Source of the DNA: Dongia sedimenti
GTDB taxonomy: Bacteria; Pseudomonadota; Alphaproteobacteria; Dongiales; Dongiaceae
Length of the DNA: 64,000 nt
Assembly (NCBI GenBank): GCA_030715195.1
Contig: JAUYVI010000003.1
Coordinates: forward strand, 586,960-650,959
Direction: 5' to 3'
Both the position numbers and the translations under genes were made by a program. This document shows, piece after piece, positions 2,194 to 30,101 of the stretch. Position 1 is the first letter of the stretch; each line of letters opens with the position of its first letter. Below the pieces are notes generated by a model that was given only the letters and a program-made list of their open reading frames with translations, searched no databases and had not been told where the DNA came from.

Positions 2194-2490
2194 ATGCAGA
2201 ACCTCGTCCCCGGCGTCACCACGCCAAGCCTCACGACACGGATCCTGATGACCGCCCTGGTCTACATGATGTTGCAGGGCGTGCTGTTCGGCTTCGGCGC
2301 CATGCTGATCCTCGGCACCCCGCTCGCTGCCCATGCCATGGCGCTGATGCCGTGGATGATCGGCGTCACGGCGCTCGTCGCCCTGCCCCTCTCCTGGATG
2401 CTGGTGCCCTATTTGCGGACGCGGCGGGAGAACCAGATCGCCCGCCAGCGTGAGCATCTCAACCTGCCGGGCGTCGGCCAGGTCAGCTAA
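2194..2490 (+). CDS. Small two-helix membrane protein (98 aa)
   Basis: ATG 2194 follows a strong CTGGAGG site at 2181-2187 with ideal spacing, which decides the start over an ATG 42 nt upstream. The protein has two hydrophobic helices, roughly residues 16-40 and 47-68, and a basic cytoplasmic tail (RTRRENQIARQRE), so the positive-inside rule puts the C-terminus in the cytoplasm. I do not recognise the family. Its TAA overlaps the stop codon of the convergent monooxygenase by four bases (2487-2490). Confidence 0.7.
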   Translation: MQNLVPGVTTPSLTTRILMTALVYMMLQGVLFGFGAMLILGTPLAAHAMALMPWMIGVTALVALPLSWMLVPYLRTRRENQIARQREHLNLPGVGQVS

Positions 2491-3737
2491 CCCGCCGCCC
2501 GATAGCTTTCGTAGCTGCGCTGGATCACGATCTGGTCGGCGATGAACTTGGCATCGTGCCAGACGCCCCAGATGAAGCTCGAGCCGCGGCGCGACAGCCA
2601 GGGCAGCCCAAGGAAATAGAGTCCCGGCACCGCCGAGACACCGCGGCGCTGTCTCGGCTTGCCCTTCGCGTCGAGCACGGGGAGCTTCAGCCAGCCGTAG
2701 TCGACCGCGAAACCGGTCGCCCAGACGATCGACGTGACGCCGGCCTGCTTGAGGTCGAGCTCCAGAATGGGCTTGGCCATGCAGGCGGGATCGGGGCCGA
2801 TCTTCCGCGCTTCGGGCTCCTCGGGAAGGTCGAGGCCGTTGCGGGCAATATAGGCATCCGCTTCGTCGAGCAGCGCCAGATAGTCCGCATCGCCCTGCGC
2901 CACGTTGCGCGCGAGATCGGGGGCGAAGCGCATCACGCCGTTCTTGAAGGACTCCGCGCGACCGACCAGTTGCATGCCGCGCGCGGCGAGCCGGCGGAAG
3001 TCGACCGTGTTGCCGCCATAGGCACCACTCACCGCAATGGTGACATGCTCGGCGCCGGCCGGCGGGGTCTCGAGGTCCCATTTGCCAAGCACGCCCAGCC
3101 ACCAGACGAAGTCGCGGCCGCGATAGCGCCGCGGCGGCCGGCCATGCGGACCGACCGAGAGAAACACCCGCCGCCCGGCGCGCAGCAACTCGTCGGCGAT
3201 CTGCGTGCCCGAGGACCCCGCCCCCACCACCAGCACCGCGCCTTCCGGCAACTGCGTGGGATTGCGATAGGCGTTCGAATGGATCTGCAGCAGGCCCGCG
3301 GTCTCCGGCACGATGGCCGGAATGATCGGCCGCTGGAACGGGCCGGTGGCGACCACCACGCGCGCCGCCTCGATCGGGCCTCGCGAGGTCTCGACGCGAA
3401 AGCCGCGCCGGCCGGATTGCGCTTCGACTGAAGTCACTTCGACGCCGCAGCGGATCGGCGCGCCGATCTTCTCGGCATAGGCGACGAAATAATCCGCGAC
3501 GCTTTCCTTGCCGGGAAAGGCATCGGGATCGCCGGCAAACTCCAGGTTTGGAAACCGGTCATGCCAGGCCGGCCCGTTGGCGACCAGGGAGTCCCAGCGC
3601 TCCGACCGCCAGCGCTCGGCGATGCGGTGCCGCTCCAGCACCAGATGCGGCACCCCGGCCTTGCCCAGATGCTCGCTCATCGCGACGCCGGCCTGGCCGG
3701 CGCCGATCACCAGCGTATCCACTCTCTCGACCGACAT
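2487..3737 (-). CDS. Flavin-dependent monooxygenase (CzcO/FMO-like NAD(P)-binding protein)
   Basis: A 416-residue flavoprotein. It has an N-terminal FAD Rossmann motif GAGQAG (about residues 12-17), the conserved ERWRSERWDSL segment typical of this group, VVATGPFQRP, and a second NAD(P)H dinucleotide motif GAGSSGTQIA near residue 170. VWATGF comes late in the chain. This architecture fits class B flavin monooxygenases and the CzcO proteins annotated as 'involved in K+ transport', an annotation not to be taken literally. The substrate cannot be read from sequence. It stands alone, convergent with a small membrane-protein gene and tail-to-head with rsgA. Confidence 0.85.
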   Translation of the reverse strand: MSVERVDTLVIGAGQAGVAMSEHLGKAGVPHLVLERHRIAERWRSERWDSLVANGPAWHDRFPNLEFAGDPDAFPGKESVADYFVAYAEKIGAPIRCGVEVTSVEAQSGRRGFRVETSRGPIEAARVVVATGPFQRPIIPAIVPETAGLLQIHSNAYRNPTQLPEGAVLVVGAGSSGTQIADELLRAGRRVFLSVGPHGRPPRRYRGRDFVWWLGVLGKWDLETPPAGAEHVTIAVSGAYGGNTVDFRRLAARGMQLVGRAESFKNGVMRFAPDLARNVAQGDADYLALLDEADAYIARNGLDLPEEPEARKIGPDPACMAKPILELDLKQAGVTSIVWATGFAVDYGWLKLPVLDAKGKPRQRRGVSAVPGLYFLGLPWLSRRGSSFIWGVWHDAKFIADQIVIQRSYESYRAAG

Positions 3738-3838
3738 GGCTGCGTCCCTGTTGCGCTCTGATGTCAGCCTAGTCGAGCAGCCTGCATAGAGAAAATATGA
3801 TTTATCGAGGCATTGCTTCGGATATTTCTATTGGCCGG

Positions 3839-4903
3839 CTACCGGTCCTTCTTCGCGGACTTGACCAGCCGGCCGAACGCCCGCTCCTTCTTCCGCTTCT
3901 CGGCGGGCGACAGCGCGCCGAGCTTCGCCTCCCGCGCCAGCTTGAGGAAGTTGTCGTAATGTCCGCGATCGAGGGTACCGGCGCTGACGGCGGCGAGCAC
4001 CGCGCAGCCCGGCTCGCTGACATGCGTGCAGTTGTTGAACTTGCATTGCGGTGCCAGCGCCAGGATGTCGGCGAAGCCGCCGGCGAGGCCGGCCTCGGCG
4101 TCGAGCAGGCCGAACTCGCGCATGCCGGGATTGTCGATCACCATGGCGCCGTTCGCGAGCACGATCAGCTCGCGGCGCACCGTGGTGTGACGGCCCTCGC
4201 CGCTGCCGCTGACGGTCTTGGTTTCCTGTTGCGCATGGCCGATCAGCCCGTTGATGAGCGTGCTCTTGCCCACGCCCGACGAGCCGACGAAGCAATAGGT
4301 CTGGCCCGGCACCAGCATGCGCTGGAGCTCATCGATGCCCTCATGGGTGACGTTGCTCAAGCGCAGCACCGGCGCGGCGATCCCCGCGCCGCGGATCTCC
4401 GCGATCTGCCCTTCCACGATCTCCGGCGCGACCAGATCGGTCTTGGTCAACAGGATCCACGGCGTTGCCCCGCCTTCGGCGACCATGGTCAGATAGCGCT
4501 CCAGCCGCTTCAGGTTGAAGTCGTAATGACAGGACTGGACGACGATCACGCAATCGACATTGGCGGCGATCATCTGCTCCCCGACGGCGCCCGCTGCCTT
4601 GCGGCGCAGGGAGGTCTGGCGCTCCAGCAAGGCCTGCACTGAGCCGAAGCCGTCGGCCCCGGCGCGCGCCACGCAGACCCAATCGCCGACGCAGGGCCGC
4701 GCCGCCGCCGCCCGCGCGCTGTGCAGCAGGTTGCCGGAGAGCTGCGCCCGAAAGACGCCGGTCTCGTTCAGCAGCACCAGCCAGCCGCGATCCACCGAGG
4801 TCACCCGCGCCGCGGTGTCCGCCGGGCCGCAATGCAGCCGGGCCTGCTCGGCGAACCAGGGGTTCCAGCCCAGGGCGGCGCGATCAGGGTTCAAGTCAGG
4901 CAC
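3839..4903 (-). CDS. rsgA: Ribosome small subunit-dependent GTPase RsgA
   Basis: A 354-residue circularly permuted GTPase that helps 30S subunit maturation. After an OB-fold N-terminus come the permuted G motifs: TKTD (G4, about 153-156), GSSGVGKS (G1, 207-214) and DNPG as G3, where DTPG is the commoner form. A C-terminal zinc knuckle follows (CKFNNC, then H and C a few residues on). The lysine-rich C-terminus fits RNA binding. GTG 4903 is preceded by GGAG at 8 nt. The length is typical. The gene is monocistronic here. Confidence 0.95.
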   Translation of the reverse strand: MPDLNPDRAALGWNPWFAEQARLHCGPADTAARVTSVDRGWLVLLNETGVFRAQLSGNLLHSARAAAARPCVGDWVCVARAGADGFGSVQALLERQTSLRRKAAGAVGEQMIAANVDCVIVVQSCHYDFNLKRLERYLTMVAEGGATPWILLTKTDLVAPEIVEGQIAEIRGAGIAAPVLRLSNVTHEGIDELQRMLVPGQTYCFVGSSGVGKSTLINGLIGHAQQETKTVSGSGEGRHTTVRRELIVLANGAMVIDNPGMREFGLLDAEAGLAGGFADILALAPQCKFNNCTHVSEPGCAVLAAVSAGTLDRGHYDNFLKLAREAKLGALSPAEKRKKERAFGRLVKSAKKDR

Positions 4904-27405: not shown

Positions 27406-28605
27406 ATGGCCGAGGCTTCCGAGATATCCACAGACGTTGCCATCATCGGCGCCGGGCCGGCCGGACTGATGGCCGCGGAACGCCTGTCCGGCCGGGGCCT
27501 CAAGGTCACCGTGTTCGACGCCATGGCAACGCCGGGACGGAAGTTCCTGATGGCCGGCCGCGGCGGGCTCAACTTGACGCATTCCGAACCGCTGCCGCAG
27601 TTCGTCGCACGCTATGGTGAGCGGGCGGCGCAGATCGCGCCGTGGCTCGAGCGGTTCTCACCCGAGGATCTCCGTCGGTGGGCCGACGGACTGGGTGCGG
27701 AGACCTTCATCGGCAGTTCGGGGCGGGTTTTTCCGAAGGCGATGAAAGCGAGCGGGCTGTTGCGCAACTGGCTGAAGCGGCTCGCCGAGAGCGGCGTGGA
27801 CTTCAAGCTCCGCCAGCGCTGGAGCGGCTTCGACGGCAATAGGCTGTTGTTCGACGGGGGTCCGTCGGTCTCAGCCCGCGCGACGGTCCTCGCGCTCGGC
27901 GGCGCGAGCTGGCCGAAGCTGGGCTCGGATGCCGCGTGGGTCCCGATCCTGGCGGCCCGCGGCGTCCAGATCGCGCCATTGCAGCCGGCCAATTGCGGTT
28001 TCGACGTCGCCTGGTCCGCGCATTTCCGCGACCGCGCCGCCGGGCAGCCGTTGAAGAACATCGCGCTCATGATCGACGGCCGCCGCGTGCTCGGGGAAAT
28101 GGTGATCACGCGCAACGGTATCGAAGGCGGCGCCGTCTATGCGATCAGCGCCGCCTTGCGCGACCGGCTTCCGGCGGTCCTGTCGCTCGATCTGAAGCCG
28201 CAGATACATGCCGACGCACTCGCGGGAAAGCTGGCCGCACGCCGGAAAGGCCGCTCGCTCTCGGCTTGGCTCAGCGGAGAACTCAATCTCACCCCCCTCG
28301 CCTATTCCCTGCTGCGCGAGGTCGCCGACCCGCTGCCGGACAATCTTGCAGCGCTGGCACGGCTGATCAAGAACGTGCCGCTGAAGATCGAACGCGCGCG
28401 CCCGATTGCCGAGGCGATCTCGTCGGCGGGCGGCATCGCGTTCGACGCCGTCGATGAGACACTGATGGTGCGGACATTGCCGGGCGTGTTCGTCGCGGGC
28501 GAGATGCTGGATTGGGAGGCGCCGACCGGCGGCTATCTGCTGCAGGCGTGCATGAGCTCGGCGGTGGTCGCGGCGGATGGCGTGGTGGCGTGCGTGGGCC
28601 GCTAG
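27406..28605 (+). CDS. BaiN/HI0933-like flavoprotein (TIGR03862-type)
   Basis: A 399-residue FAD-binding oxidoreductase. The N-terminal dinucleotide motif is IIGAGPAGLMAAERL, followed by GRKFLMAGRGGLNLTHSEP, the signature of the HI0933/BaiN group. FIGSSGRVFPKAMKAS and the C-terminal FVAGEMLDWEAPTGGYLLQ complete the pattern, the latter closing the FAD site. Members are widespread and mostly of unknown reaction; BaiN acts on bile acids in gut bacteria, which is not implied here. Divergent from upp. Confidence 0.9.
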   Translation: MAEASEISTDVAIIGAGPAGLMAAERLSGRGLKVTVFDAMATPGRKFLMAGRGGLNLTHSEPLPQFVARYGERAAQIAPWLERFSPEDLRRWADGLGAETFIGSSGRVFPKAMKASGLLRNWLKRLAESGVDFKLRQRWSGFDGNRLLFDGGPSVSARATVLALGGASWPKLGSDAAWVPILAARGVQIAPLQPANCGFDVAWSAHFRDRAAGQPLKNIALMIDGRRVLGEMVITRNGIEGGAVYAISAALRDRLPAVLSLDLKPQIHADALAGKLAARRKGRSLSAWLSGELNLTPLAYSLLREVADPLPDNLAALARLIKNVPLKIERARPIAEAISSAGGIAFDAVDETLMVRTLPGVFVAGEMLDWEAPTGGYLLQACMSSAVVAADGVVACVGR

Positions 28606-28639
28606 TAAGTCAGTCGAACATTTAACCCAATACTCGGCC

Positions 28640-28674
28640 GTCATCCCAAGGCTTGGCCTTGGGATCCACGAGTT
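28640..28674 (+). repeat. Left 35-bp inverted repeat arm
   Basis: GTCATCCCAAGGCTTGGCCT followed by TGGGATCCACGAGTT. It contains the hairpin CCCAAGGC-TTG-GCCTTGGG. It lies just past the 3' end of the GIY-YIG gene. Confidence 0.9.
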
Positions 28675-28691
28675 TGTGGGTCGCAGATCGG

Positions 28692-28979
28692 CTATCCGTT
28701 GATCTGATCGTAGAGGTCATCCCAGTTCGGATTCATGCCGGTGATCAGCCGGACCTTCCATGCCCGCGGCCAGCTCTTGATAAGAGCCTCGCGCTGGATC
28801 GCCTGCTCGATGCGATCGTGTTGCTCGACATAGACCAGGCGGCGCAGCTTGTAGCGGCGCGTGAAGACACCGCCGTTGCCGTTCCGGTGATCCCAGATGC
28901 GCTGCGGCAGATTCGCTGTGACGCCTACGTAGATAATTCCGTTCGGCTTGTTGGTTAGAATATAGACACAGCCGGACAC
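28692..28979 (-). CDS. GIY-YIG nuclease domain protein
   Basis: A 95-residue single-domain nuclease of the UPF0213 type. It has VYILTNKPNGIIYVGVT, the GIY-YIG core in which the second motif reads IYVGVT, RIWDHRNG, the tyrosine/arginine helix, and IEQAIQREALIKSW with the conserved metal-binding glutamate. All catalytic positions look present. Such proteins have no established role. Here the gene is enclosed by perfect inverted repeats. No ribosome binding site stands out before ATG 28979. Confidence 0.9.
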   Translation of the reverse strand: MSGCVYILTNKPNGIIYVGVTANLPQRIWDHRNGNGGVFTRRYKLRRLVYVEQHDRIEQAIQREALIKSWPRAWKVRLITGMNPNWDDLYDQING

Positions 28980-28997
28980 GCCTCAGCGCTCGATGTG

Positions 28998-29032
28998 AAC
29001 TCGTGGATCCCAAGGCCAAGCCTTGGGATGAC
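28998..29032 (-). repeat. Right 35-bp inverted repeat arm
   Basis: Exact reverse complement of 28640-28674, located 18 nt upstream of the GIY-YIG start codon. Confidence 0.9.
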
Positions 29033-29071
29033 GAGCGAGTGAGGGGAAAGAGCAGAGGAACGCTTGTGACA

Positions 29072-29102
29072 TGACGATTTCATTCGATGAATGAAATCGT
29101 CA
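29072..29102 (-). terminator. 14-bp perfect hairpin over the epimerase stop codon
   Basis: TGACGATTTCATTC pairs with GAATGAAATCGTCA around a 3-nt loop. The stem includes the TGA stop of the epimerase gene (29100-29102). No T-run follows on the minus strand, so it may be a 3'-end stabiliser or Rho-assisted terminator rather than an intrinsic terminator. Confidence 0.5.
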
Positions 29103-30101
29103 CTGCACAACGAAGCCGTGCTTATACGGATCGCGGTCGTCGATGAAGATCGTGTTGTAGCCGGTGACGCGGGCCCATCCTTCGATCGAGGGGATGATGG
29201 CGGCATGGTTGCCGACCTTCGCCTCGTTCACCACGCGGCCCTTGAACAGGCTGCCGATGATGCTCTCGTGGACGAAGCTGTCGCCGACCTTCAGCTTGCC
29301 CTTGGCGGCGAGCTGGGCCATGCGGGCCGAGGTGCCGGTGCCGCAGGGCGAGCGGTCGATCGCCTTGTCGCCGTAGAAGACCGCGTTGCGGGCGTCGGCC
29401 TCAGGATGTTTCGGCGCGCCGGTCCACAGGATGTGCGACAGGCCCTTGATGGTCGGGTTGTCGGGATGCTGGAAGGTGTATTTCTCGTTCATCCGCTTCC
29501 TGAGGATCGGGCTCATCCGCACCAGATCGCCGGCGGCGAAATCCGCCATGTCCCGATAGTTCGCCTGCGGCTCGACGATCGCATAGAAGTTGCCGCCATA
29601 AGCGACATCGACCTTGATGGTCCCCAGATCCGGGCAGTCGATCTCCAGGTCTTCCGAGTGCAGGAAGGCCGGCACATTGGTGAGGCGCACGGATTCCACG
29701 TATTCGCCGACCTGATTGTATTCGGCGATGACCAGACCGGCCGGCGTTTCGAGCCGCAATGTCCCCGGCGTCTTCGGCTTCACCAACCCGTTCTCGATCG
29801 CGACCGTCACTGTGCCGATCGTGCCATGGCCGCACATCGGCAGACAGCCGGAAGTTTCGATGAACAGGATGCCGACGTCGCAATCCTCGCGCGTGGGCGT
29901 GTAGAGAATGCTGCCCGACATCATGTCATGGCCGCGCGGCTCGAACATGAGGCCGGTGCGGATCCAGTCGAACTCTTTCAGGAAATGCTGCCGGCGTTCG
30001 CTCATGCTGGCGCCCTGAAGCTGCGGGCCGCCGCCGGAGACGACCCGCACCGGGTTGCCGCAGGTATGGGCGTCGATGCAGGAGAAGGTATGCTTGGCCA
30101 T
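29100..30101 (-). CDS. 4-hydroxyproline 2-epimerase (proline racemase family)
   Basis: A 333-residue cofactor-independent epimerase. The two catalytic cysteines are visible: Cys90 in MCGHGT and a second near residue 253 in SPCGTGTS, so the protein belongs to the racemase/epimerase branch and not the dehydratase branch, which has Thr at the second site. Length fits 4-hydroxyproline epimerases, which convert trans-4-hydroxy-L-proline to cis-4-hydroxy-D-proline. The downstream catabolic genes are not adjacent. It follows mscL by 10 nt and may share its transcript. Confidence 0.85.
   Translation of the reverse strand: MAKHTFSCIDAHTCGNPVRVVSGGGPQLQGASMSERRQHFLKEFDWIRTGLMFEPRGHDMMSGSILYTPTREDCDVGILFIETSGCLPMCGHGTIGTVTVAIENGLVKPKTPGTLRLETPAGLVIAEYNQVGEYVESVRLTNVPAFLHSEDLEIDCPDLGTIKVDVAYGGNFYAIVEPQANYRDMADFAAGDLVRMSPILRKRMNEKYTFQHPDNPTIKGLSHILWTGAPKHPEADARNAVFYGDKAIDRSPCGTGTSARMAQLAAKGKLKVGDSFVHESIIGSLFKGRVVNEAKVGNHAAIIPSIEGWARVTGYNTIFIDDRDPYKHGFVVQ

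Follow-up and report, generated by a model that had tools for sequence, protein, structure and literature searches.

A 393-bp unit in the genome of Dongia sedimenti consists of a single GIY-YIG nuclease gene enclosed by two identical, inverted copies of a CGTC-tagged REP. The unit lies in a 64-kb stretch of contig JAUYVI010000003.1, which is referred to here as the window. It probably represents an autonomous REP element (at a probability of roughly 0.7), in which an Ssn-like GIY-YIG gene is carried between two cognate CGTC REPs. The observations that bear on this reading are the anatomy of the unit, the specific link between its gene subfamily and CGTC REPs, the agreement of arm types with protein clades, and the presence or absence of related units at the same places in relatives. 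On our best reading, the Ssn-like REP-associated nuclease would be an analog of RAYT for the CGTC REPs.

CGTC REPs were surveyed by Di Nocera, De Gregorio and Rocco (2013; PMC3733652). In the main text of that survey, they are characterized by a CGTC (or TGTC) foot, AT-starting stems, loops of 4-5 nt, and a tail that is mostly CCA; head-to-head dimers predominate, the hosts are mainly alphaproteobacteria, and the dRS3 repeats of Neisseria and the RPEs of Rickettsia are included in the group (PMC3733652). The same text describes these REPs as "apparently" lacking a dedicated transposase, deems the few cases that adjoin transposase genes fortuitous, and does not contain the term GIY (PMC3733652). 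Among the matches listed in a search of open-licence papers, no title or abstract opening linked a GIY-YIG nuclease family to REPs. The novelty of the unit is nevertheless smaller than the first-pass annotation of this DNA had supposed, since CGTC REPs were already in print (PMC3733652), and a nuclease family named Ssn, treated below, narrows it further.

Organization of the Unit

The first-pass annotation had described perfect 35-bp inverted repeats around a lone 95-aa GIY-YIG gene and had read each repeat as a hairpin, and both descriptions were borne out. The arms are identical at 35 of 35 positions, and their match widens to 43 nt at 95% identity (28632-28674 and 28998-29040; Table 1). A search of the 64-kb window with up to three mismatches returned two matches, both of them the arms themselves, and no third copy; 100 dinucleotide shuffles gave none. 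The single arms are predicted to fold as DNA hairpins (z scores of -4.2 and -7.7), and 28630-29042 as a whole is predicted to form a single long hairpin whose loop contains the gene (z = -8.7). Both arms read CGTC-ATCCCAAGG-CTTGG-CCTTGGGAT-CCA, a form that fits the CGTC REP superfamily in its CGTC/TGTC foot, its AT-starting stem of 8-9 bp, its loop of 4-5 nt, and its CCA tail.

Table 1. Features of the window unit and its surroundings.
Feature	Position	Strand	Basis or remark
Left neighbor gene	27406..28605	+	Converges on the unit; presumably flavoprotein-like (named from its sequence)
Whole unit, with imperfect outer arm extension	28632..29040	none	
Left arm, a CGTC-tagged REP	28640..28674	+	Repeat match, fold, and a tail type common to REPs elsewhere in the genome
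Tag CGTC of the left arm	28639..28642		Followed by stem-loop ATCCCAAGG-CTTGG-CCTTGGGAT and tail CCACGAGTT
GIY-YIG nuclease gene	28692..28979	-	95 aa, GTG start, Ssn-like subfamily
Right arm, the left-arm REP inverted	28998..29032	-	Tag outward (CGTC at 29033-29030 on the - strand)
Right neighbor gene	29100..30101	-	Presumably proline racemase / hydroxyproline epimerase-like

The unit is intergenic and stands between convergent genes, so that its gene, unlike group I intron or classical homing endonuclease genes, does not interrupt a recognition site within a host gene or intron. Neither an intrinsic-terminator-like nor a sigma-70-like site was found in 28500-29200, and terminators were rejected as an explanation because none of the consensus type was found in that stretch; the earlier view that they are not common terminators was also upheld by their association with one GIY-YIG subfamily, described below. 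Membership of a defence island was rejected, the PADLOC match being weak (E = 0.017). Just to the right of the unit is a second, unrelated inverted repeat (29064-29110; 22-nt arms, 86% identity, 3-nt spacer) that runs into the end of the epimerase-like gene.

The Encoded Protein and Its Relationship to Ssn

The window protein belongs to the GIY-YIG superfamily by its domain match (PF01541, E = 9.8e-16) and its conserved columns. An alignment of 51 sequences, from which broken or cut genes and some near-copies were left out, has the invariant positions Y6, Y17, G19, R27, H31, F39, E64, K68, R72, and N83, and we take Y6, Y17, R27, E64, and N83 to be the residues expected in the catalytic site of a GIY-YIG enzyme. 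The fold is shared with the UPF0213, UvrC, and Slx1 nucleases: a confident AlphaFold2 model (pLDDT 95.9) matched the structure 1zg2 (UPF0213) at E = 3.3e-4 and, more weakly, the GIY-YIG domains of Slx1 (best E = 0.02), while sequence matches were to 1ywl and 1zg2. No NCBIfam family scored above its cut-off, and the match to TIGR01453 was partial and below the cut-off of that family.

A homolog in Neisseria gonorrhoeae, presumably Ssn itself, is 45% identical to the window protein over 93 residues. It stands among dense CGTCATTCCCGCG repeats, with six repeats of the CGTCATTCCC type within 300 bp. Ssn was reportedly described by Chenal and colleagues in Nature Communications in 2025 as a family of site-specific single-stranded nucleases; the Neisseria enzyme is said to cut single-stranded DNA at these repeats (NTS) and to modulate natural transformation, and homologs are said to number thousands. 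The kind of enzyme encoded in the window is thus probably already known in part. Like Ssn, the window protein is short, has the GIY-YIG fold, and goes with a palindrome that occurs in many copies; its homology to the Neisseria enzyme points to membership of the Ssn family, and a cognate repeat occurs both near the gene and genome-wide. By analogy, it is a putative sequence-specific single-stranded DNA nuclease. To what is reported for Ssn, the present analysis may add the placement of the gene inside a matched REP pair and the turnover of such units among relatives. The CGTCATTCCC type corresponds to dRS3, which the main text of the 2013 survey counts among the CGTC REPs (PMC3733652).

CGTC REPs and GIY-YIG Genes in Dongia sedimenti

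The genome of D. sedimenti (6.13 Mb in 26 contigs) contains two stem types of CGTC REP, with 86 and 18 exact copies, while reversed-pattern controls gave none. These 104 copies are a lower bound, another pattern having yielded 124. Sixty-eight of the 104 listed REPs are paired within 120 bp, and all 34 pairs are head-to-head with tags outward, 25 of them with a start distance of 57-58 bp. The tail was ACGAGTT or ACGCCTT at the nine places inspected. The arms are therefore dispersed through the genome mostly as head-to-head dimers, as in the CGTC REP superfamily. Two proposals of the first-pass annotation are sustained here: the arms are REPs in the REPIN (head-to-head) arrangement, with a CGTC build and all 34 tight pairs bearing outward tags, and the genome search that it had called for recovered at least 104 related REPs together with a second unit (L032) that has the same arms and a related gene. 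The arm is not unique to the window unit, and the annotation withstood most of its own refuting tests.

Six GIY-YIG domains are encoded in this genome, four of them in the subfamily of the window gene. Each of the four has at least one CGTC REP no more than about 130 bp away, and none accompanies the remaining two GIY-YIG genes, UvrC and a small gene that we take to be UPF0213-like. The window gene and L032 each lie between identical arms with the tail ACGAGTT, and when the two units are compared, their arms are identical and their interiors 75% alike (239 of 318 aligned bases). A third gene (L033) has arms of another stem, with the tail ACGCC and tags inward, and the fourth (L034) adjoins a REP pair with the tail ACGCCTT.

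Association of the Nuclease Subfamily with CGTC REPs in Related Bacteria

A census covered every GIY-YIG domain detected in 17 genomes of the family, D. sedimenti among them (71 domains in total); the subfamily was defined by a motif of our own choosing and one gene (L174) was placed in its class by hand. An arm score threshold of 17 was used throughout, set from the first controls (maximum 16 of 312); of 450 later control placements, 2 exceeded it with inverted and 7 with direct repeats. Flanking inverted arms were present at 23 of the 29 subfamily genes, none of the 17 UvrC genes, and 3 of the 25 other GIY-YIG genes, and a CGTC REP lay within 300 bp of 21, 0, and 1 of them, respectively, so that UvrC and other GIY-YIG genes are mostly without CGTC REPs, unlike the window subfamily (Fisher p about 1e-10 for the subfamily against all others). 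By chance, a mean of about 0.009 REPs per 600 bp would be expected. Four of the six subfamily genes below the arm threshold still have at least one CGTC REP nearby, and of the 17 genes with REPs to the left and right, 13 have the same REP sequence at both. The suggestion that an enzyme other than a RAYT is tied to the palindromes was largely right; that this enzyme cleaves or copies them, as was also suggested, is a hypothesis. Whereas the main text of the earlier survey associates no transposase gene with CGTC REPs (PMC3733652), most genes of one GIY-YIG subfamily are bordered by such REPs here.

Not every unit is built as in the window. In some, the tags point inward, and several of these have a complete REP pair to one side of the gene instead of a single pair enclosing it (L033, L115, L140, and L151). 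The three armed genes of the "other" class (L130, L133, and L144, in genomes G015 and G007) form a related subclass with the motifs GSTR and ...KGWSRAKK in common. The palindromes at their flanks are of another type, such as CTCATCCTGAGCCTGTCGAAGGATGAG in L133, which would fit a separate REP type for every nuclease subclass.

The relationship between enzyme and palindrome extends to the clades within the subfamily. When arm tails were mapped on the subfamily protein tree, four changes sufficed (the minimum possible being three), while shuffled tail labels needed a mean of 10.8 and none of 200 shuffles was as low as four. The tree had 28 rows, of which 23 were labeled and five were not, with L174 left out; it was a quick tree in which 12 of 25 inner branches are open, the labels were assigned by eye, and orthologous near-copies add to the clustering. 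Judged in this way, arm type follows the protein tree.

Turnover of Units Among Relatives

The first-pass annotation had proposed a search for empty sites, and for related units, though not for the window unit itself, places were found that are occupied in some relatives and lack the unit in others. One such unit is present in genomes G006 and G002 of the genus, and both of its flanks occur together in four other members. The matched flanks are 17 bp apart in G003 and 49 bp apart in G005, with no REP at the empty place in either; G004 (65 bp) and G001 (127 bp) have REP-like remains there and no gene. In D. sedimenti, the two flanks match different contigs. A second unit is found in G009 and G008, and G011 has 150 bp at that place without a gene, including REP-like palindromes that were seen by eye in the alignment and missed by the REP pattern. 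Presence and absence of these units are observed directly, while divergence of the flanks obscures the junctions and any target-site duplication; because the intergenic spaces have diverged, neither a target-site duplication nor an exact junction can be defined.

At a third syntenic place, G011 (L225) and G008 (L226) have different subfamily genes that are 70% alike, and the one in G011 has a closer counterpart (80%) at another place in G008. Of the two genes at the shared place, one has arms, whereas no more than a remnant arm is left at the other. One unit may have replaced another here.

The place and copy number of subfamily genes differ between relatives, and 5 of the 29 census genes are damaged, three by stops, one by a frame shift, and one by an internal deletion. 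For the window unit, no clean empty site was found among the six other genomes of the genus, because in none of them were its two neighbor genes found adjacent to each other. The right neighbor is kept in all six (77-83% DNA identity), and the 2.4-3.5 kb around it contain no GIY-YIG match and no CGTC REP. The left neighbor was matched in five: three have it 18-43 kb from the right neighbor on one contig, and two have it on a different contig; in G004 it was not among the matches listed.

Relatives Beyond the Order

Cross-phylum relatives of the window gene numbered 52 in a genome collection, 49 of them with enough flank (L073, L081, and L083 are left out of the counts for lack of it). Going by record titles, they comprise among others Alpha- and Gammaproteobacteria, Bacteroidetes, Anaerolineaceae, Moraniibacteriota, and Wolfebacteria. 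Inverted arms flank 24 of the 49, compared with 2 of the 450 control placements; with direct repeats included, 30 of the 49 are flanked, against 2 inverted plus 7 direct of the controls, and 19 have no flanking repeat at the threshold. A palindrome taken from such flanks, GTCATTGCGA...GCAATCTC, occurs in 12 of 15 tested genomes at 1 to 62 copies and in no control. In Sphingobacterium rhinopitheci (L076), it is matched 15 times (14 distinct ends) over 1.6 kb (2364-3985), all in one orientation and at steps of mostly 83-85 bases, and the GIY-YIG match (3001-3270) falls within this array.

Matches were also obtained to 34 records of a plasmid collection (PLSDB), of which 13 were examined. Nine of the 13 reach an inverted score of at least 17; R. 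tumorigenes, Photobacterium, Spirosoma, and Planktothrix fall below it, the last having direct repeats with a score of 78.5. CGTC REPs were detected by pattern in eight, namely seven of the nine armed relatives plus Photobacterium, which has a single REP on one side. Two of the records, judged by their size, look like misfiled chromosomes (L227, N. gonorrhoeae, 2.17 Mb; L235, Aeromonas caviae, 4.94 Mb). On plasmid AZO_p3 of Azospirillum lipoferum 4B (L229), sufB and sufC are separated by a unit whose gene has one REP pair to its left and another to its right. The relative on plasmid p1 of Planktothrix agardhii (L239) has as its neighbors a gene for a type IIL restriction enzyme (MmeI) on one side and drmA, which encodes the DISARM helicase, on the other.

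How the Units Might Spread

The closest parallel is the RAYT/REPIN (REPtron) system, in which, likewise, the gene of a DNA-cutting enzyme is flanked by its own REP, gene-less pairs occur genome-wide, and enzyme clades are matched to REP types. RAYTs belong to the HUH Y1 tyrosine transposases and are paired with GTAG REPs, whereas the present protein has the GIY-YIG fold and its REPs the CGTC tag, which places the unit outside the RAYT/REPtron class. We infer that the enzyme moves the REPs. It would recognize the REP that flanks its own gene, and gene-less head-to-head REP pairs would be non-autonomous relatives of the unit, in the same relation to it in which REPINs stand to RAYT genes. The enzyme might cut a REP while it is single-stranded, on the lagging strand or in incoming DNA, with the cut falling close to the CGTC foot, which the hairpin leaves unpaired. 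Repair templated by another REP copy could then multiply, replace, or move REPs, and the gene would travel along whenever the template carried it. GIY-YIG enzymes hydrolyze DNA, while RAYTs form a covalent joint with it; joining must therefore fall to host repair, and we think that copying by repair is likelier than cut-and-paste.

In its widest form, this model holds that a dedicated GIY-YIG nuclease moves CGTC REPs without a RAYT or a classical transposase, from the Alphaproteobacteria to the Bacteroidota, Chloroflexi, and candidate phyla, and that paralogous enzyme/REP pairs reside together in one genome. So general a claim is tentative, and we put it at a little under even odds. Evidence against a mobilizing enzyme comes from copy numbers, since the number of REPs does not track the number of intact subfamily genes across the 17 genomes (rho = 0.24, p = 0.35). 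One genome (G015) has 98 REPs and only a frame-shifted subfamily gene, and another (G010, 68% complete) has 69 REPs and no subfamily gene; past activity and gene loss could account for these findings.

A close rival of the mobilizing model is homing into existing REPs, in which the nuclease cuts gene-less REPs or REPINs and the gene-bearing unit templates the repair, the REPs themselves having spread by other means. GIY-YIG is a classic homing-nuclease fold. Homing would account for the gene-less palindromes at unit places (in G011 against G009 and G008, by eye, and as remains in G004 and G001), for the different subfamily genes of G011 and G008 at one syntenic place, and for the S. rhinopitheci gene inside a REP array. 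It is harder to reconcile with the empty places that lack a REP in G003 and G005 and with the units that have tags inward or a full REP pair on one side, and the same pattern would result if a unit had lost its gene. On balance, homing appears rather unlikely, at something under one chance in three.

The nuclease might instead be kept by the cell for a function of its own, such as limiting or shaping the uptake of REP-bearing single-stranded DNA, with the arms serving in autoregulation or as a needed cognate site. The dense repeats around the N. gonorrhoeae homolog, the reported modulation of natural transformation by Ssn, and the preservation of the invariant columns and fold residues are consistent with such a role. 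A gene retained for the host would not readily be expected to be damaged in 5 of 29 cases, to vary in place and copy number among relatives, or to lie between sufB and sufC, and as a full explanation this function is improbable, more so than homing. A role in DNA uptake is possible alongside any of the other readings.

Two further explanations have very little in their favor. A RAYT, that is, a Y1 tyrosine transposase, could move the REPs in trans with the GIY-YIG gene as cargo, and D. sedimenti does have one Y1_Tnp gene (L097), yet no CGTC REP was detected by pattern in the 3.3 kb examined around it, and according to the main text of the 2013 survey no tyrosine transposase gene of the CGTC-positive species is flanked by CGTC REPs (PMC3733652), so that this explanation is highly improbable. 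Strongly disfavored, and the least probable of all, is the notion that REPs gather in any loose convergent intergenic space, where the gene is tolerated: the window unit does lie in such a space, which the abstract of the survey gives as a common REP location (PMC3733652), but its arms are identical and matched, arm type follows the protein clade, CGTC REPs accompany none of the 17 UvrC genes and one of the 25 remaining GIY-YIG genes, and inverted arms stand at 2 of 450 control placements.

Implications

CGTC REPs are widespread, dRS3 of Neisseria and RPE of Rickettsia among them, and the mechanism of their spread was left open in the main text of the 2013 survey (PMC3733652). A nuclease subfamily that is physically and evolutionarily locked to these REPs provides a candidate enzyme for that spread and, with it, a direct assay. 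Judging from the related genomes, the enzyme and its palindromes seem to move as one and to have evolved in step, and the genome of D. sedimenti offers paralogs with two arm-tail types for comparison. If the reading of the window protein as an Ssn-like enzyme is true, each enzyme/REP pair may be a ready-made site-specific single-strand nuclease.
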